A DNA stretch of 28,431 nt from a virus, in IMG/VR virus record IMGVR_UViG_3300025849_000161, positions 1 through 28,431 of that record; one strand, given 5' to 3'. The notes beneath the pieces were generated by a model, which did no database searches, was not told where the DNA came from, and was given only the letters and a program-made list of their open reading frames with translations. A program made the translations under genes and the position numbers. Below are positions 4,095-18,559 of the stretch, piece after piece. Every line of letters starts with the position of its first letter. The first letter of the stretch is position 1.

Positions 4095-4110
4095 CTACCA
4101 TATTAGGTAG
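4095..4110 (+). other. Short inverted repeat in the gap before the hub module
   Basis: CTACC (4095-4099) can pair with GGTAG (4106-4110) around a 6-base ATATTA loop. It abuts the GATATATATAA motif. The stem is too short and has no following T-run on this strand, so I do not call it a terminator. Confidence 0.35.
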
Positions 4111-4118
4111 ATATATAT
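4110..4118 (+). promoter_or_regulatory. Candidate phage promoter motif GATATATAT
   Basis: GATATATAT starts 27 bases before the ATG at 4137, in a 51-base gap. The core GATATATA recurs in three other real intergenic gaps of the window at similar positions. It resembles the AT-only T4 late promoter type (TATAAATA) more than a host -35/-10 pair. The promoter role is inferred from recurrence and position. Confidence 0.45.
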
Positions 4119-4136
4119 AAAAAAGAATATCCATAT

Positions 4137-5972
4137 ATGCCGATTACTGACGACGCACATTTTATTTTTAAAAAGGTACTTAATATTGCTGATGAAACTA
4201 CAGGTGTAGATGTTACGCAATATTTTTATGAGGATACAAGGACTGGAAAAGAAGTAAAAACCAGTGCACCTAAACCAGGTTCTCTTAATAATGCCCCTCC
4301 AGAACCAATTGATACGGCTGGAACAGGTAAAAATACACTAGATTTAAATAATACAACCGCTAATTTTGGTGAAGGTTCTCTATATCCAACCAATGGTGTA
4401 GATTCTAGAAGTTATCCGGTTAGAACTGCTATTAGTGGAGATAAAGGTGATATTACATATGAAGATAAAGGAGATACAGTTACCTTAGGTAAAGCACCTC
4501 GAAGTTTATTTAATAATTGGACATTACATAGATATGATAATAGAGTAGGTGTTGTCGCACGAGACAGCACGAGTGAAATAGGAGGTAAAGATTATAATAA
4601 ACCTGTTATGAGCGCGTTGGGTGAGAATATGATACTTAATCCAACTGCTAGAAATATAGTTGAATACGCTAGTAGTACTGGTGGAGAAAGCTTTGCATAC
4701 AGTTATAGTGATTTTATTCAAATGGAACACTACGGTCAAATATCTAATGATTATTTAATTACGCTTAGACGTTTTGCTTATCCCGTTGGCGATGATTTAT
4801 TAAGTCCAAAAATGGCGGGTACTAAACCCGAACCTATTAATGCAGATGCCCCTGATTTGGCTAGAGCTGTTACGTGGTTATCTCCTGCATTGGGCAATGA
4901 TTTAAAAGAGATACTTAAATTTAAGGCTGGTTTTAAATGGACTGAAGCTAAATCAGAAATACAGGACGCACAATCTAGACAAAGCGATACGGGTGCTTTA
5001 GGATCTGCCATAGATAATAGTAAATATGGTTCAGCTATTGAATCTGGTTTAAATGGTTTTACTGCAGCTCAAGCTAAGAAACTTAGACTTGCAGGTAATG
5101 TGGATCATACTAAAGAAACGTATCCTAATAAGGTTTTCGGACCTCTTAATATCATTGATCAGGTTTTAACCAGAGACAAGGGTTTAACCTTTGATCAAGA
5201 ATTTAAATTATCATTTCACTATGATTTAAAAGCATTTCCTGGAACTAGTCCAAAGGTTGCATTTATGGATACATTAGCTAACGTATTGGCGCTTACATAT
5301 AATAATGCACCGTTTTGGGGAGGAGCTACTAGATTTAGTGGTAGTGGAAAAACCGGAAAACCTTTTGGAGATACATCTCTTTTAGAAAAAGGAGATTATG
5401 CTGGTTATATTGGTTCTATTGCTGACACGCTCGCAGGGATGGGTGGAAACTTTATGGATCAATTAAAGAAGACTGCAAAAAATATAGCTGGCGGCGAAGG
5501 AATTAATAAAATTTTAGGTGATTCTTCTATTCTTGAAAATATTGTTGGAGGCGGTTTAATGAAAATGCTGGGTGGACCTTCAGGTGGTGATGTTATTAAG
5601 GCCTTTTTAACAGGCGATCCAACTGGACAATGGCATTTAACTATAGGAAATCCAATGAACCCGATAATGGTCTGTGGAAACTTAGCATTACAAGATTCTG
5701 AATTTAGTTTTGAAGGTCCTCTAGGTTTTGAAGGTTTTCCTACTAAAATGAAAGTTGATATAACACTTAAACCTGGTAGACCTAGAGATAAAACAGAAAT
5801 AGAATCTATGTTTAACGCAGGTAGAGGTAGAATGTATTTACAACCTGAATGGGGTGATGGAGAAGGTATAGATATAGATGCAATGCTTAATGTAGATGCG
5901 TATGGCCAAAATGGTAAAAATATCTCAAATAAAGCTTATATGAGTAGACTTTCTGATATGTCTGCTGGATAA
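4137..5972 (+). CDS. Tail/baseplate-associated virion structural protein
   Basis: 611 aa. The first about 110 residues are Gly/Thr/Asn-rich and probably flexible. A middle region (about 160-225) reads MILNPTARNIVEYAS...LITLRRFAYPVGDD. A later region (about 345-400) has LSFHYDLKAFPGTSPKVAFMDTLANVLALTYNNAPFWGG. The C-terminal domain contains QWHLTIGNPMNPIMVCGNL (about 498-516), then a beta-rich section ending in KPGRPRDKTEIESMFN. This combination is familiar to me from large myovirus virion proteins near the baseplate hub, but I cannot tie it to one T4 gene; a tube-initiator or hub-associated role is inferred. It opens the hub module behind the candidate promoter and is followed 14 bases later by the gp53-like gene. 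Gly-rich hydrophobic stretches (about 425-495) could contact membrane or protein partners. Confidence 0.65.
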   Translation: MPITDDAHFIFKKVLNIADETTGVDVTQYFYEDTRTGKEVKTSAPKPGSLNNAPPEPIDTAGTGKNTLDLNNTTANFGEGSLYPTNGVDSRSYPVRTAISGDKGDITYEDKGDTVTLGKAPRSLFNNWTLHRYDNRVGVVARDSTSEIGGKDYNKPVMSALGENMILNPTARNIVEYASSTGGESFAYSYSDFIQMEHYGQISNDYLITLRRFAYPVGDDLLSPKMAGTKPEPINADAPDLARAVTWLSPALGNDLKEILKFKAGFKWTEAKSEIQDAQSRQSDTGALGSAIDNSKYGSAIESGLNGFTAAQAKKLRLAGNVDHTKETYPNKVFGPLNIIDQVLTRDKGLTFDQEFKLSFHYDLKAFPGTSPKVAFMDTLANVLALTYNNAPFWGGATRFSGSGKTGKPFGDTSLLEKGDYAGYIGSIADTLAGMGGNFMDQLKKTAKNIAGGEGINKILGDSSILENIVGGGLMKMLGGPSGGDVIKAFLTGDPTGQWHLTIGNPMNPIMVCGNLALQDSEFSFEGPLGFEGFPTKMKVDITLKPGRPRDKTEIESMFNAGRGRMYLQPEWGDGEGIDIDAMLNVDAYGQNGKNISNKAYMSRLSDMSAG

Positions 5973-8942: not shown

Positions 8943-10367
8943 ATGTCAGACTTTAAACATATTAATGAATTTAGAAAAGGTACTACTTTAAGAAAGATCA
9001 GTGAAGATCCAACTTATCTTAGTTTCTTTTTGATGTTCGATAGTGTAGATCCTGAACATTCTCCACTATTATCTGGTAGAGCAGAAGCTTATTTGAAAAA
9101 ATTTGTTGACACAAAAGACGGAAACACAAACTACGCTGGAAATTTAGCTGCATTTAAAAAAGTTTTAATGAAAATCAATAAAGATATGCCATGGTTTTGG
9201 CAAAAAATATCTGGATTGGAGTTAACGCAGACATACGGTAAAATGCAAGAGCCATGGCACGGTGCAGAAAGTCCTAAAATAGACATTGAGTGTTTAGAAG
9301 AAAATGTAGAATTAACTGCAATAAGTCTTATGATGTTATACAGAAAGGCTGTTTATGACTATCAAAGATACGTTGAAATTTTACCAAAAAACTTAAGATA
9401 TTTTAGAGTGTGGATTGTAATGTCAGAAGTTAGGACATTTCAGCAAGATACTGCTGCCAGAGATTTAAATTTATACGGTACAAAGATGCCAGAAGATAGA
9501 GCTGGTTCTGATGTTGAACTCATTCCTAGGGCAAAAGGATATGAAACAGCAGGCCCAAGAAAAGGGCGTGACTTTGACGCTGCTTTAGTCAATAATTATA
9601 ATGCTGAATCAAAACCACATATGATGTTTGAATTAGATTTCTGTGAGTGGATAACTGACTCTATAGCTGACATGTTTGCTGATGCATCTAAAATGCCAGA
9701 ATTAAAAAAACCTAAAATTTCTTTTTCATGGCAACATTCACATATATCTGGTTCTAAATTTGGACCTAATATTACTAAGTCAGAAGAAGAAAATCTTATA
9801 CCAAAAAAACCAGAAGATGATTTATATCCAAATACGCCATTTAATCCGTTGGCAAACGCACAGAATGCTATTAGCGATAAAGTAAATGGTTTAGCAGGTT
9901 CTCTAGTAAATAGATTTAATAACTTAAAAAATAGTTTACCGGGACAAGGTAATAATCCATTAGGTAGAGTTTATCCGGAAGGATTGACAGGTGCGGCAGC
10001 AACAATTGCTAATGCTGGTATGGATAAAGTAAAATCACTTATATTAGATAATGTTCACGGAGCTAGTACAGGTTTAGGTTCTTTAGGAGATATAAATTCT
10101 GCATTAGAGTCTGGTAGTATTAATGGTATTGCTAATTTAGCAGGTCAACTTTTTGGTACTAAATCTTCTAAACCAATAAAGGGTAATATTTCACCTACTA
10201 AAATATATGAGCCTGGAATTGATACTTCCCCGGACGAAAGGATAAACGAAAAGGTTTATGATCCTATTCAGCAAGCTAATGATCAACCTATAAGTCCAGG
10301 TAGAATATATGATCCTGGTGTAGATAGCACACCTGACAATAACATTAACGATAACGTATACGAATAA
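8943..10367 (+). CDS. Virion protein, possible tail-tube-fold baseplate protein with C-terminal repeats
   Basis: 474 aa. The N-terminal about 240 residues include YLSFFLMFD, PWFWQKISGLELTQTYGKMQ, ECLEENVELTAISLMMLYRK and LPKNLRYFRVWIVMSEVRTF. This resembles tube-like virion proteins of large myoviruses, in which a beta-sandwich and helix form a ring stacked on the hub (a gp48/gp54-type role in T4). That is inference from pattern, not a firm match. Residues about 260-415 are Asn/Gly/Ser/Leu-rich and flexible. Two 25-residue repeats, each beginning ISP..IY.PG.D, close the protein (416-440 and 450-474). The stop overlaps the spike gene start as TAATG. A TA-rich stretch (gaatatataac) ends 3 bases before the ATG. 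Confidence 0.6.
   Translation: MSDFKHINEFRKGTTLRKISEDPTYLSFFLMFDSVDPEHSPLLSGRAEAYLKKFVDTKDGNTNYAGNLAAFKKVLMKINKDMPWFWQKISGLELTQTYGKMQEPWHGAESPKIDIECLEENVELTAISLMMLYRKAVYDYQRYVEILPKNLRYFRVWIVMSEVRTFQQDTAARDLNLYGTKMPEDRAGSDVELIPRAKGYETAGPRKGRDFDAALVNNYNAESKPHMMFELDFCEWITDSIADMFADASKMPELKKPKISFSWQHSHISGSKFGPNITKSEEENLIPKKPEDDLYPNTPFNPLANAQNAISDKVNGLAGSLVNRFNNLKNSLPGQGNNPLGRVYPEGLTGAAATIANAGMDKVKSLILDNVHGASTGLGSLGDINSALESGSINGIANLAGQLFGTKSSKPIKGNISPTKIYEPGIDTSPDERINEKVYDPIQQANDQPISPGRIYDPGVDSTPDNNINDNVYE
10188..10364 (+). repeat. Two copies of a 25-residue C-terminal repeat
   Basis: Copies at 10188-10262 and 10290-10364 encode ISPTKIYEPGIDTSPDERIN plus EKVYD, and ISPGRIYDPGVDSTPDNNIN plus DNVYE. 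A 9-codon spacer separates them. Sixteen of 25 residues are identical and most others are conservative. Confidence 0.85.
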
Positions 10368-11077
10368 TGGATGAATTATTTCTAGACAATCTTAGAGATT
10401 CACATTGGTTAGGAGAGGTAGTTGTAAACGAAGATCCTCTCTTAAATGGTAGATGTAAGATTAAGGTTTATGGTAAATTTGATAAACTAACTGACGACGC
10501 TATTCCATGGGCAACACCTATGAATAGGGATCAAGTAGGTTCACATGCTGTACCTAGAGTTGGTGATATTGTTGCTGTTAGATTTGATAATGGTAATATT
10601 TATCACCCAGAATATTGGTTTCAAATAGATCAAAACACAGATCTTAAGACAGATATTTTAGAAACATCTGACGCACCACATGATGTAATAAGTTTAGTAT
10701 ATGATGCTGAACGAAATGTAAGAATTTATCATTCTCCAGAAGATGGCTTAGTTATTACAAGAGGTAGTGGTGCCAAAGAGCGTCCAATCATTCAGATGGA
10801 TGAAGAAGGGTTTATAAAAATTAGTACTGACGCTAAAATGTTCTTAGACTGTGGTGATATATTCGTTTCAAATACGGGCGAACCGGGAGCAGATGAAACA
10901 GAACCTGCAGTAAGAGGTCAATCTTTACAAGATTGGCTACAAATGTGGTTAGATGATTATAACGCACATATTCACCCGACAGGCGTTGGACCATCTGGAC
11001 CACCTATGCCACCTACACCCGTAACTGTAGGAAAATTATCTAGTACTCATATTAACTATCAACAAAAGAATAAATAA
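10367..11077 (+). CDS. Baseplate central spike, gp5/gpV OB-fold type, without lysozyme domain
   Basis: 236 aa. The N-terminal about 100 residues form an OB-fold of the gp5/gpV type: WLGEVVVNEDPLLNGRCKIKVYG, then AIPWATPMNRDQVG, then PRVGDIVAVRFDNGNIYHPEYWFQ. A beta-rich stretch (about 120-175) follows, probably a short spike stem. The end has DDYNAHIHPTGVGPSGPPMPP, a His/Gly/Pro tail common in phage spike proteins. Unlike T4 gp5 (575 aa) there is no lysozyme domain between the OB-fold and the stem. The protein caps the hub and pierces the outer membrane. The start overlaps the upstream stop as TAATG, indicating coupled translation. Confident in family, less so in exact stem structure. Confidence 0.8.
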   Translation: MDELFLDNLRDSHWLGEVVVNEDPLLNGRCKIKVYGKFDKLTDDAIPWATPMNRDQVGSHAVPRVGDIVAVRFDNGNIYHPEYWFQIDQNTDLKTDILETSDAPHDVISLVYDAERNVRIYHSPEDGLVITRGSGAKERPIIQMDEEGFIKISTDAKMFLDCGDIFVSNTGEPGADETEPAVRGQSLQDWLQMWLDDYNAHIHPTGVGPSGPPMPPTPVTVGKLSSTHINYQQKNK

Positions 11078-12805: not shown

Positions 12806-12814
12806 GATATATAT
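12806..12814 (+). promoter_or_regulatory. Candidate phage promoter motif GATATATAT
   Basis: It lies in the 46-base gap after the 571-aa gene and starts 36 bases before the S1-domain gene start. The core is identical to the copies at 4110 and 14147. It would give the S1-domain gene its own transcript. Inferred from recurrence. Confidence 0.45.
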
Positions 12815-12841
12815 TATGTTACACCTTTAATATAAAAATAA

Positions 12842-14128
12842 ATGAACAACGAAAAAAACAAAAGAGTTAGAATTGGCGAAGTTAAAGTCGAGGAAACTAA
12901 AATCGAAGAAGTAAACAATCAAGTTGAAAATTCACAAGAAGATTTACAGGATGTCACCGAATCCTATTACGATGAAAATGGTGAATTTATGTGGGACGCA
13001 TATGAAGCTAGTTGCCCATCTAAAACAAGAAAACCCAATCCACATATCAAAACTCTAAGAGGAGATAAAGTTTTTTCTAGAGAAGATTACGCACAAGATT
13101 TTTATGACTTATTAGCTGAATTTGACAGTAAACATAGTTTAATTACTAAACTAAATGCAGGTGAAATTCATGAAGGTAAAATTTACGGAGTAAGTTCTGA
13201 ATTTATTAGCGTTGATATTGGTTATAGAGAATTAATATACGTTAAATATGATAAAGAACCTGCTGATATACAAGCATTAAAACCAGGTGATGAAACATCT
13301 GTTTTAATTACTCAACTTACTAAAAACTCACATATATTAGGATCAATTCACGGAGGTGTTAAACATCGTGTATTCATGGATCTTAGAGAAGGTGTAGAAA
13401 CAGGCGGAACCGCATGGGTTGGTACTGTAACACATATGATTGAAAATGGAGGTTACATGGTAATGATTCAAGGTATTGAGTGTTTTATGCCAGGATCACT
13501 TGCTGGAATTAATAAACTGCATGATTTTTCATCCATCATTGGTAAAGAAATATATGTTGTGCCAGTTAGTTTCTCACCAGAAAGAGGCACATTGGTAGTT
13601 TCTCATAGAAAATATTTACAAGCGTTAATTCCTAATGAAATATCGTCATTAAAAGAAACACAAGGCGAAACTCTTACCGGAAATGTAACAGGAACTGCAA
13701 AATATGGTGTTTTTGTAGAGTTTAATAAATGTCTAACTGGTATGATTCATAATAATGACTTAGACGAAGAAACTTTAGTTAAATTTAAAGCTAGAGAAAT
13801 TAAACCAGGTGATCAAATATCTTTTATGGTAAAAGATATCATAAGTAATACAAAAATTACGTTAACACAGAAAGCAAATATCGTAGTAAATCCATGGAGC
13901 GATATCACATCAAGATACACCATTCCTTCTGTAATAGAAGCTACTGTTAAGACTAAAAAAGACTATGGTCTATTCATTACAATAGAAGAGGGTGTTACTG
14001 GACTATTACACGTGAGCGAATTAGGTGAAGAAGTTATGAGTGTATTTAAGGCCGGTGATAAGATCACTGTTCAAATTACAAGAATCGATGTTGATTCAAT
14101 GAAAGTCTTTTTAAAGATGCCTCAATAA
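12842..14128 (+). CDS. S1-domain RNA-binding protein, ribosomal protein bS1-like (four S1 domains)
   Basis: 428 aa. After an acidic leader (about 1-100), four OB-type S1 domains follow at about 107-170 (GEIHEGKIYGVSSEFISVDIG), 189-257 (GTAWVGTVTHMIENGGYMVM), 276-343 (GETLTGNVTGTAKYGVFVEF, with CLTGMIHNNDL) and 361-427 (VIEATVKTKKDYGLFITIEE, with VTGLLHVSELG). Domains 3 and 4 carry the classic G.FV/LF...G..GL.H.S-type pattern; 1 and 2 are divergent, as in ribosomal S1, where the first domains bind the ribosome. E. coli S1 has six domains and about 557 aa, so this is a shortened form. A role in bringing phage mRNA to ribosomes is inferred; RNA binding or RNA decay roles are alternatives. It sits between two baseplate modules with its own candidate promoter. 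Confidence 0.85.
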   Translation: MNNEKNKRVRIGEVKVEETKIEEVNNQVENSQEDLQDVTESYYDENGEFMWDAYEASCPSKTRKPNPHIKTLRGDKVFSREDYAQDFYDLLAEFDSKHSLITKLNAGEIHEGKIYGVSSEFISVDIGYRELIYVKYDKEPADIQALKPGDETSVLITQLTKNSHILGSIHGGVKHRVFMDLREGVETGGTAWVGTVTHMIENGGYMVMIQGIECFMPGSLAGINKLHDFSSIIGKEIYVVPVSFSPERGTLVVSHRKYLQALIPNEISSLKETQGETLTGNVTGTAKYGVFVEFNKCLTGMIHNNDLDEETLVKFKAREIKPGDQISFMVKDIISNTKITLTQKANIVVNPWSDITSRYTIPSVIEATVKTKKDYGLFITIEEGVTGLLHVSELGEEVMSVFKAGDKITVQITRIDVDSMKVFLKMPQ

Positions 14129-14146: not shown

Positions 14147-14155
14147 GATATATAT
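14147..14155 (+). promoter_or_regulatory. Candidate phage promoter motif GATATATAT
   Basis: In the 52-base gap after the S1-domain gene, starting 34 bases before the amidoligase-like gene. It shares GATATATA with three other gaps. It may also drive the wedge module downstream, because no larger gap occurs until 27837. Confidence 0.45.
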
Positions 14156-14180: not shown

Positions 14181-15488
14181 ATGCAAAAATTAAATATAGA
14201 TTCTTCAAGGGAATCAATTTTGAATGCGGCACTCATGGGTGTTGAATTTGAATTCTATTCTAATATCGATCTAGAAGCTACCAAAAAATCTTTGGCTCAG
14301 CTTCTAGATCGTAAGATTAGGTTGGAAGACAAAGCTCATTCTGATTTCCAACCATCTGCTGAAGAATTTAAAATAGAACCAGATATGTCGGGTGGAAAAG
14401 GTCTAATGGAACTAGTTACAGGACCTATTCCGTATAGAAATGCTAGAATAGTTGTAAACAAAGTTTTAGATTGGATATCTAAAAACGGATACACTAACGA
14501 TAGAGCATCAATTCATGTTAATTTATCATTCGATAAAAAATTCTTAGAAGATAAAGATCTTATTTCTAGAATGAACGTTCTTAAGTTTATTTTAGAATTT
14601 GATGAAAAACAAGTTTATAAATTCTTTCCTGATAGAGAAAATTCTGCATACGCAAAGAGTGTCAAATGGGTAATGCCAAAATGGGAAGCATTTCATTTTG
14701 ACGCAAATCAAATTGCATCTAATAATTTTAAATTTGCCGATACTAAATACTATGGAATAAACTTTTCAAAGAAGGAAAAGAATTATTTAGAATTCAGATA
14801 CTTAGGAGGTCAAGATTATGAAAAGAAAGTTGATAATATACTTTATTTAACTGAGAGTTTTTTAATGCAAATGTGGCATTCTTGTAATGATCCTAGATTT
14901 ACAGCTGAAAATAAAATAGAACTTCAGAGAATTTTAAATAAAAATAAACCTATTTCAGAGGCACTTAAAAATTATACTAATGTCAATAAACATTGGCCTA
15001 ATATAGAAATATTAGTAGATTTACAAAGTAATCCTACTATTATTAATGTACACTGGGAAAGATTTAAACACAGAGTTGTTGATTTATTGGTCAATGGTTC
15101 TATGGAAGCAGGAATTATAAACTACGATTCAGATTATGGTGCGGTTCAGGTGAAAGATGGAAAGTTTCCAACTGTTTATTTACTAGAAAATTTTGAATTC
15201 ATAGACTGTGAATTAACAGGTAATATAACCAACTGTAGTTTTTATAATTGTGAAGTTAGCGGTTCGGCTATTATGATGTGCAGTCTATACAAAGGTACTA
15301 AAATAAAGGAGTCTAAAGTAGAGTCATGTTATACACATGGAAGTTGTGAATTAACCAACTGTTATGTTGCCGGAAGAGACACTATGTTTAAAGGTAAAAT
15401 GATAGGTGGAATATTTAGAGAGGGCTTTAGAAGTAAAGACGCTAGATTTGAAGAAACTGAAATAGTAGTAAGTAAAAAAATAAACTAA
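14181..15488 (+). CDS. Amidoligase-like enzyme fused to Cys-rich beta-helix-like tail
   Basis: 435 aa. Residues 20-26 (GVEFEFY), 66-85 (EPDMSGGKGLMELVTGPIPY), 108-117 (RASIHVNLSF) and 202-210 (YLEFRYLGG) follow the order of the putative amidoligase (COOH-NH2 ligase) family related to glutamine synthetase and glutamate-cysteine ligase. Glu-x-Glu, the Glu of ELVTGP, His112 and the EFR segment are candidate metal/ATP-site residues. Such enzymes form amide bonds with ATP; the substrate here is unknown (peptide, protein side chain or cell-wall fragment). Residues about 335-428 form short repeating strands like a pentapeptide or beta-helix fold, with seven Cys between 343 and 394. The gene lies between the S1 gene and virion genes, so modification of a virion or host surface component is plausible but unproven. 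Confidence 0.7.
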   Translation: MQKLNIDSSRESILNAALMGVEFEFYSNIDLEATKKSLAQLLDRKIRLEDKAHSDFQPSAEEFKIEPDMSGGKGLMELVTGPIPYRNARIVVNKVLDWISKNGYTNDRASIHVNLSFDKKFLEDKDLISRMNVLKFILEFDEKQVYKFFPDRENSAYAKSVKWVMPKWEAFHFDANQIASNNFKFADTKYYGINFSKKEKNYLEFRYLGGQDYEKKVDNILYLTESFLMQMWHSCNDPRFTAENKIELQRILNKNKPISEALKNYTNVNKHWPNIEILVDLQSNPTIINVHWERFKHRVVDLLVNGSMEAGIINYDSDYGAVQVKDGKFPTVYLLENFEFIDCELTGNITNCSFYNCEVSGSAIMMCSLYKGTKIKESKVESCYTHGSCELTNCYVAGRDTMFKGKMIGGIFREGFRSKDARFEETEIVVSKKIN

Positions 15489-16356: not shown

Positions 16357-16713
16357 ATGGAATTATACATAAAATATCCGACTGATCCTAATTACGATCC
16401 GTATCAGGTTCAAACTAATAGTGAAATAGAAATGTTGATTACACAAATTCAAACGCTTTTATTCACTAATACTGGTGAGGTGATGGGTAGTTATAGATTT
16501 GGTTGTGATTTAGAAAAACTTATATATGATTTCAACGCAAGTGCATATAATGTGAAATCTATTATAATTGAACAAATAAATCAATATTGTCCATTAGCTG
16601 AAAAATTCAAAATAGATGTTAATGTTGAGTTTTTAAAGGGTGAAGTTAGAGATATTGGTTTAATCGATATTACAATAGATAGTAGATATGCTGTAAAAAT
16701 AAGCATGCTATAA
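16357..16713 (+). CDS. gp25: gp25/GPW-family baseplate wedge protein (sheath initiator)
   Basis: 118 aa, close to the usual gp25 length (132 in T4). The signature is clear: SEIEMLITQIQTLLFTNTGE (22-41) followed by GSYRFGCDLEKLIYDF (44-59), then a helix and a C-terminal sheet. gp25 joins the wedge to the first sheath ring. At the place of the family's EPR motif this protein has EKF (82-84), lacking both Pro and Arg. It is immediately followed by the gp6/gpJ-type gene, a pair conserved in contractile tails. The leader is TA-rich (ataaatatataaatg) with no SD. Confidence 0.9.
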   Translation: MELYIKYPTDPNYDPYQVQTNSEIEMLITQIQTLLFTNTGEVMGSYRFGCDLEKLIYDFNASAYNVKSIIIEQINQYCPLAEKFKIDVNVEFLKGEVRDIGLIDITIDSRYAVKISML

Positions 16714-16729
16714 AAAAGTATACAAAAAA

Positions 16730-18559
16730 ATGGCAGAATTAAAATTTTTAAATACAATTAGAACAAGTGCTAGTCAAATAAATAATGACGCTAGAACTTA
16801 TATTTCTAGAGTGTATAAAAGAGCAAACAACTTATTTACAGTTGCTTCTCCTTTTGCACAGATACTGAGCGTCTTATCTGAGATGGTAGAATTAGTTATG
16901 TTCTATATAGAAGATTCTGTCGTTGAACAAAACATATATACTGCACAACAACCTGAATCTATTTATGGTATGTCTAGATTGACCGGTCATGATGCAACTA
17001 GAGGTTTTGCAGCGACGGGTGAGATTGATTTTAGGTGGAAACCAGGTGCAGATATGGCTAAAATTGCAGGTAGCACATTAAATATAGATGGTAGAGCTAA
17101 ACTTAAATTTGATATAAATGGTTTAACTTACACTCTATTAAATTCTGTAGATAAATTTAAACTAGAAAAAACAAATTTTAATTCATTTAGAACTTCTATA
17201 ATTCAAGGTGAATTTGAATCTCAAACATTAACTGCAACTGGTGAAAAACTACAGTCTTATAGCGTTAATACTAGTGGCCTGACTGATCATAGTAAAATTA
17301 GTGTAAGCGTAAACGGTGAGTTATGGACTAAACATAATTCTTTATATGATATTAATTATGAAGAAAAAGCGTATCTGGTTAAAACGGGTATCAGTGGAGG
17401 CTTAGATATTTATTTTGGAAATGGTAGTTTCGGGGCAGTGCCACCCGCTGGCGCCTCAATCGTTGTCGAATATGTAAAACATGTTGGTTTAAATGGAAAT
17501 TTAGATGATTCTCCAGACTTGACCATTAAATGGGACGCTGTTGGTTCTGATTCTAATGGAACTGAACATGATTTAAATGAATTTTTAGATGTTACTATTA
17601 CATCTTCACCTAAAATGGGAAGTGATAGAGAATCTACTCAATTTACTAAAATCATGACTCCATTGGCTAGTAAATCATTTGTTTTGGCAACGCCTGACAA
17701 TTATGAATACTTTTTATCTAGATACAACATGTTCTCTTATATCGATGCATATAATACGACTGACGATCAATATTTAGATGACGATAATGTTATTTATATT
17801 TTTGCTGTTCCAGATGCTAAGAAAAAATTAGCAAAAAATCAAGATTATTTTAGCATGCCTGAACAAGAAATGTTTTTAGATCAAGGTGAGTATGATGCTA
17901 TGCATAAAGTATTAGAAGATAGCGGCCAACAAATGGTTACAACTGAAGTTGTTTTCGTTAAACCACAGGTTAGACACTATAGTATGGATATTAATATTAG
18001 ATACTTTGAGGGTTATACTAAAGAAGAAATATACAATAGTGTTAGATCTAAAGTTTCAGAATATTTATTAAATATTACTCGAAGAGATAAATTACCTAAA
18101 TCTGATATTATTTATATCTTAGAAGAAATAGAAGGTATAGATGCTGTTAATATTAGATTTATTTCAGAAACTGAAGAAACCGCTAGAAGACAAGGTTATT
18201 ACGAATCTGTTAATATCAGTGTAGTACCTCAAGAACCTGTTACACTAGAAACTATAGGAAATGGTAAACAAAAATATGTTTTCTTTAAGAAAATAGAAGA
18301 TGTTAAACTAGTAACAGTAGATGAATCTACTCAAATACCTGATCACGTGAGAGGTTTAGATCAGTGGGGAGATATTATCATGGAGAAAGAAGAAGTTGCT
18401 GTATTTAGAGGTGGATGGTTAGACAGAGATGGTGATTTAATAGAAGATGATGTGTTAATGAATGCAGAAGCGGCCGTTAGTATTAACTTTGAAGCAGACC
18501 CTGTGCCTAAAACAATTTACACTAGGGTTCAAGCTGGAAATAGAAGAGCACTTAAGTAA
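16730..18559 (+). CDS. gp6: gp6/gpJ-type baseplate wedge protein
   Basis: 609 aa, close to T4 gp6 (660 aa). The N-terminal helices (1-75) with FTVASPFAQILSVLSEMVEL match the wedge core region of gp6. Residues about 223-258 carry the baseplate-J signature: LDIYFGNGSFGAVPPAGASI followed by VVEYVKHVGLNGNL. The late part (about 385-490) has HYSMDINIRYFEGYTKEEIYNSV and the IEGIDAVNIRFI type seen at the end of J-like proteins. gp6 dimers link the wedges into the baseplate ring. The stop overlaps the next start (TAATG at 18557-18561). Strong call from signature and from the neighbouring gp25. Confidence 0.88.
   Translation: MAELKFLNTIRTSASQINNDARTYISRVYKRANNLFTVASPFAQILSVLSEMVELVMFYIEDSVVEQNIYTAQQPESIYGMSRLTGHDATRGFAATGEIDFRWKPGADMAKIAGSTLNIDGRAKLKFDINGLTYTLLNSVDKFKLEKTNFNSFRTSIIQGEFESQTLTATGEKLQSYSVNTSGLTDHSKISVSVNGELWTKHNSLYDINYEEKAYLVKTGISGGLDIYFGNGSFGAVPPAGASIVVEYVKHVGLNGNLDDSPDLTIKWDAVGSDSNGTEHDLNEFLDVTITSSPKMGSDRESTQFTKIMTPLASKSFVLATPDNYEYFLSRYNMFSYIDAYNTTDDQYLDDDNVIYIFAVPDAKKKLAKNQDYFSMPEQEMFLDQGEYDAMHKVLEDSGQQMVTTEVVFVKPQVRHYSMDINIRYFEGYTKEEIYNSVRSKVSEYLLNITRRDKLPKSDIIYILEEIEGIDAVNIRFISETEETARRQGYYESVNISVVPQEPVTLETIGNGKQKYVFFKKIEDVKLVTVDESTQIPDHVRGLDQWGDIIMEKEEVAVFRGGWLDRDGDLIEDDVLMNAEAAVSINFEADPVPKTIYTRVQAGNRRALK

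Follow-up and report, generated by a model that had tools for sequence, protein, structure and literature searches.

The open reading frame at positions 12842-14128 of the window, i.e. the whole 28,431-nt stretch IMGVR_UViG_3300025849_000161, belongs to a large virus of Bacteroidota bacteria. Its product is an ancient and shortened viral form of S1, the ribosomal protein by which messenger RNA is brought to the ribosome. The frame lies on the plus strand, runs from ATG to TAA and specifies 428 amino acids (aa). We consider it fairly probable that the product is a phage-lineage paralogue of bS1 that is made late, docks on the host 30S subunit via its domains D1-D2 and delivers late phage mRNA lacking a Shine-Dalgarno (SD) sequence. 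Close relatives are encoded on 231 IMG/VR stretches, so that the frame did not arise by chance, and an alignment-based scan matched at least 597 stretches, with at least 569 confirmed. The features used in the analysis are:

10367..11077, + strand, baseplate hub gene (gp5-like OB domain, phrog_430; Pfam/PHROGs profile matches)
12806..12813, + strand, GATATATA, late-type promoter element of the S1 gene, conserved in 21/21 homologs checked
12814..12841, + strand, conserved 5' leader TTATGTTACACCTTTAATATAAAAATAA, including a possible 4-codon upstream ORF ATGTTACACCTTTAA
12842..14128, + strand, phage S1 gene (P0001), 428 aa, bS1-like, domains D1-D4
12986..13006, + strand, F-x-W-x-x-Y-E motif (FMWDAYE), common to the N-terminus of Bacteroidia bS1 (FDWDAYE)
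13085..13123, + strand, helix before D1 (YAQ-[DE]-x-YD), predicted helix 82-94, located where E. coli bS1 has its uS2-binding helix (PMC10123108)
13151..13351, + strand, S1 domain D1, ribosome-anchoring type, best match host D1, Arg129 at the E. coli Lys43 position
13403..13615, + strand, S1 domain D2, best match host D2, with the phage-specific FMPGSLAG motif
13661..13876, + strand, S1 domain D3, RNA-binding type, closest to host D5, then D4, D3
13919..14125, + strand, S1 domain D4, RNA-binding type, best match host D4, Y/F/H kept
14181..15488, + strand, amidoligase-like gene, preceded by a separate GATATATA element (14147-14154)
16357-16713, wedge gene (phrog_261)
16730..18559, + strand, baseplate wedge subunit gene (Baseplate_J, phrog_219)

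The four S1 domains of the original prediction were recovered in a colinear alignment with D1-D4 of E. coli bS1, in a domain-wise profile comparison and in an AlphaFold2 model. The Pfam S1 match has an E-value of 2.5e-21, and a phmmer search against solved structures retrieved E. coli bS1 at 1.7e-36, with residues 105-425 of the query colinear with residues 16-342 of bS1 (D1 to D4); D5-D6 of bS1 are absent. In the profile comparison, D1, D2, and D4 each had their host namesake as best match, and D3 ranked host D5 ahead of D4 and D3. The tandem order D1, D2, D3, D4 of bS1 is present, with D3 ambiguous among host D3-D5 because these are very similar paralogues, so that D3 may derive from host D3 or from host D5. 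The eleven leading NCBIfam models are all bS1 models, among them, in third place, a bifunctional fusion. The scores of PNPase and RNase R are far lower, and Pfam revealed no nuclease domain. The protein is thus specifically bS1-like, rather than a relative of PNPase, RNase E, or RNase R. All matches are below the curated cut-offs, the best bS1 model scoring 160 bits versus an equivalog cut-off of 524 (NCBIfam), showing that the protein is bS1-like and not rpsA itself. No PHROGs family was found for it.

The AlphaFold2 model was built from 21 family members and has a mean pLDDT of 67.7 and a pTM of 0.30, so that the single domains are usable and their relative arrangement is not. It contains four units rich in beta-strands, a short helix at residues 51-56 and the helix 82-94 before D1. 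Ribosome-bound bS1 chains of the PDB are the top Foldseek matches of the model (E-value 7e-25 over 363 columns). The predicted acidic leader proved to be acidic when taken as a whole, whereas a stretch of ~12 residues at its start is basic and conserved (KNKRxRIG).

In E. coli bS1, D1 docks on uS2 via Phe5, Phe9, and Lys43, and D2 contacts mRNA through Lys117, Phe120, and Phe130 (PMC10123108). Among the features of the uS2 anchor, the phage protein has the predicted helix before D1, and Lys43 is replaced by Arg in 15 of the 15 rows of the window family; Lys occupies this position in five of the seven huge-phage rows and is lost in Lak phages, whose S1 copies are devoid of D4. In the window family, the Phe120 position is occupied by Tyr, Phe130 is kept as Phe, and the aromatic and His residues on the RNA faces of D3 and D4 are unchanged. 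The helix before D1, the match of D1-D2, and the kept residues support docking together with RNA delivery, short of proof. The D1-D2 half would most likely dock on the host 30S subunit, replacing or competing with host bS1, and D3-D4, as the sole RNA-binding arm, would pass late phage mRNA, which is A/U-rich and SD-less, on to the ribosome. Ribosome binding, the replacement of host S1, and the mRNA preference are what we infer from the protein.

The conserved RNA-binding residues of D3-D4 would equally suit a protein that acts off the ribosome, coating phage mRNA without 30S docking (for stability, antitermination, RNase protection, or as an RNA chaperone), and so would the exchange of the D1 anchor Lys for Arg in the window family and its loss in Lak phages. 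D1 and D2 have little RNA affinity in E. coli bS1, and their retention, their specific match to host D1/D2, and the helix before D1 argue against such a protein, which we regard as unlikely. Al-Shayeb et al. 2020 proposed an initiation role for phage S1 "on or off the ribosome" (PMC7162821), a wording that includes it. A competitive inhibitor, which would fill the uS2 site and, being without D5-D6, stop the translation of host mRNA, is compatible with the retained anchor half and the two missing C-terminal domains. However, the strongly conserved RNA-binding residues of D3-D4 would be needless for a pure blocker, and the late-type promoter fits an early shut-off poorly, making this role improbable. 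Delivery of late phage mRNA by a 30S-docked protein is the reading that we prefer.

To place the protein relative to host bS1, a maximum-likelihood tree of D1-D4 was calculated from 54 rows, i.e. 22 phage S1, 26 Bacteroidota bS1, and six other bacterial bS1. All 22 phage S1 group together in a single clade (100/100), which a stem of 4.76 changes per site separates from bacterial bS1; long branches limit the exact placement in the tree, and the shared phage motifs are independent of it. These motifs, FMP[GN][ST][LM][AG] and G-x-[VI]-T-G-[TS], occur in 22/22 phage rows and 0/38 bacterial rows. The clade includes seven huge-phage records (462-735 kb, Lak phages included), each with exactly one S1 copy, and the window protein is monophyletic with the S1 of these phages (100/100). 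The largest contigs with the close S1 family are fragments of 126-165 kb. That all phage S1 fall into one clade far from bacterial bS1 identifies the gene as one ancient phage gene and not a recent host capture. The very long stem, together with the scores below the bS1 cut-offs (160 against 524 bits), indicates that the function of the protein may have shifted.

Some S1 matches in the phage collection are clearly of bacterial origin, which would fit a contaminated assembly or an rpsA gene captured recently from a host. The record named "Acinetobacter phage MD-2021a" contains an Acinetobacter rpsA with chromosomal neighbours, and MT835643 contains a Bacteroidales-type bS1 and was also judged to be bacterial DNA; such matches were used as bacterial rows only or set aside. 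For the window gene this explanation was rejected and has hardly any probability left: the single clade with all huge-phage S1 (100/100), the AU test, which rejects that Bacteroidia bS1 and the window family belong together (p 1.4e-6), the phage-specific motifs and the phage baseplate genes on both sides speak against it. The F-x-W-x-x-Y-E motif is shared by the N-termini of the window S1 and Bacteroidia bS1; among the N-termini inspected, most other Bacteroidota and the other bacterial rows did not show it. It points to an old origin from, or adaptation to, Bacteroidia. In some Bacteroidota genomes (G114, G044, G060, G087, G110, and G028), there is also a gene for a second S1-type protein, which has 516-570 aa and a long low-complexity leader and in which no bS1 D1 can be recognised.

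The candidate promoter that the original prediction had assigned to the S1 gene itself is supported by the element GATATATA, located 36 nt before the ATG and found in 21 of the 21 homologs. The element was observed 12-90 nt upstream of many ORFs (those at 4137, 12842, and 14181 in the window, and in contigs G119-G121), mostly of structural genes where a function can be assigned, and is a candidate late promoter motif of the phage group. A 150-kb relative contains it 32 times over both strands, with 19 of the 124 ORFs of at least 100 aa having it at most 60 nt upstream. Genes behind it in related contigs encode the portal, tail sheath, prohead protease, head closure, tail-fibre-like, and tail tube proteins, and also ribonucleotide reductase, suggesting that it is a phage promoter element mostly, not solely, of late genes. 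Because it is common to the portal, sheath, protease, and tail-tube genes, late expression of the S1 gene is likely, the timing being read from the promoter motif only. A late-type promoter fits the earlier proposal that the protein favours late phage mRNA. A scan for sigma-70 promoters gave 12 promoter-like sites versus 9.6 expected, i.e. about background. The conserved leader had raised the possibility of S1-specific regulation (autoregulation), which was dropped because the two leaders, that of S1 and that of the gene after it, do not differ in conservation (82.5% against 82.0%).

The S1 gene is flanked by an unassigned gene for a 571-aa protein upstream and the amidoligase-like gene downstream, and lies between the hub gene (10367-11077) and the wedge genes (16357-16713 and 16730-18559), in agreement with its described position between hub and wedge genes. 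In the 462-kb phage LR756500, S1 and the surrounding structural genes have the same order as in the window. The Amidoligase_2-like gene (14181-15488) within the baseplate cluster is kept in this phage at 41% identity. In a 735-kb phage, the gene that precedes S1 matches a tail tube weakly (1.2e-4), and in Lak phages no recognisable window neighbour was found around S1.

The position of S1, which in the window and LR756500 is surrounded by baseplate genes and in the 735-kb phage adjoins the tail-tube-like gene, would be expected if the protein were a virion component of the baseplate or were ejected. Searches of Pfam and PHROGs for a baseplate family, including a gp5/gp27/VgrG-type OB domain, gave no match; ribosomal S1 accounts for every match obtained with structure or sequence, and in Lak phages S1 sits away from baseplate and tail genes. 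In addition, S1 does not have the N-terminus that many ORFs of these phages carry and that resembles a capsid-targeting sequence (CTS). A virion role is therefore very improbable, and the packaging of S1 via a T4-like capsid-targeting N-terminus was dropped as an idea.

The shared N-terminus (MKYIKEYEEFLLE, MKHIKLFEEFTNE, MKTFNKYIVEE) is found at the start of many ORFs of related phages, e.g. at 4106-4795 and 18931-23691 of L083 (LR756500), and also in L255, L256, L258-L260, and L248. We take it to resemble the capsid-targeting sequence of the internal proteins of T4. A regular expression for it matched 7 of 29 ORFs in L083 and 9 of 132 in G120, compared with 0/115 and 2/847 interior Met positions, respectively, and none of the window ORFs. 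The ORFs concerned may encode cargo that is cleaved by the prohead protease and ejected. Two further ORFs of L083 (1062-2240 and 6770-7975; LR756500) have identical N-termini (MIRTSKHVLSFSNKEKL...), lie between structural genes and look like copies of a mobile element. In LR756504 (L087), the region of ~14.4-25 kb is almost devoid of long ORFs under code 11, which may reflect another code, masking, or a non-coding region.

The original prediction had also stated that almost all of the phage genes lack SD sequences. SD-like matches indeed occur at the shuffled frequency in the window and three related contigs, and A-richness is present near -11 to -14. Bacteroidota hosts likewise have no SD sequences, and the A-rich, SD-less pattern is ordinary there (PMC6847099). 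The absence of SD alone therefore cannot make phage mRNA special, it does not follow that an SD-less phage needs its own S1, and the need for a special phage S1 is not evident. If the phage S1 selects at all, it must do so among SD-less mRNAs. The phage S1 bears on the question of how SD-less Bacteroidota choose their start sites and which part bS1 has in this (PMC6847099).

Genes for bS21 are present in two of the five close relatives tested, all five of them fragments, and in four of the seven huge phages. On the 30S platform, bS21 adjoins bS1. A late role of phage bS21 has been proposed from expression data (PMC9723584). A more far-reaching scenario, which we put forward tentatively and consider rather unlikely as a whole, is that these S1 are an ancient lineage confined to phages, which is passed on with the tail module in most huge phages of Bacteroidota and is expressed late. 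Together with phage bS21 in some of the phages, it would remodel the platform at which mRNA enters the host 30S subunit, so that late phage mRNA would be selected among mRNAs that are all SD-less. With its four domains, the compact phage S1 represents the mRNA-delivery arm in a naturally minimal form, and its conservation extends over hundreds of contigs and several complete genomes of huge phages. The proposed takeover of initiation by phages becomes testable with this S1 and the phage bS21 of some relatives.

The hypothesis of the original prediction receives partial support here and has essentially been published. Al-Shayeb et al. 2020 described huge-phage proteins with up to six S1 domains and found that huge phages with S1 rarely have SD sequences, i.e. 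that S1 correlates with missing SD (PMC7162821). The window S1 resembles the S1 of those phages (Mahaphage/Lak) in belonging to the same clade (100/100), in being present in one copy per genome, in its occurrence in SD-less phages predicted to infect Bacteroidetes, and in the functional proposal (PMC7162821). It differs in sequence, with ~37% identity or less in the first search, and the window family has all four domains and the Bacteroidia-type F-x-W motif, in contrast to the Lak copies without D4. The late promoter and the tail-module position are not in the main text of PMC7162821.

With Bacteroidota bS1 (rpsA), the phage protein shares the D1-D4 register, the N-terminal F-x-W-x-x-Y-E and the RNA-binding residues. 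In contrast to it, the phage protein is without D5-D6, has a long insertion after the N-terminal motif and the phage-only motifs, is separated by a stem of ~4.8 changes per site, and stays under the bS1 family cut-offs. The late-expressed bS21 of Bacteroidetes phages, for which Chen et al. 2022 likewise proposed a role in initiation (PMC9723584), is also a ribosomal platform protein encoded among structural genes, expressed late, in SD-less hosts; however, it is bS21 and not bS1, and has metatranscriptome support. Microcystis phage PhiMa05 also encodes a bS1 (PMC13157829), but this was acquired, along with further ribosomal proteins, from a host resembling Vampirovibrio, and has a separate origin according to PMC13157829. 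In Mizuno et al. 2019, S1 was treated as ambiguous and set aside. Compared with these systems, the single-lineage origin, the domain register, the position in the tail module with a late promoter, and the presence of bS21 in some close relatives are new here.
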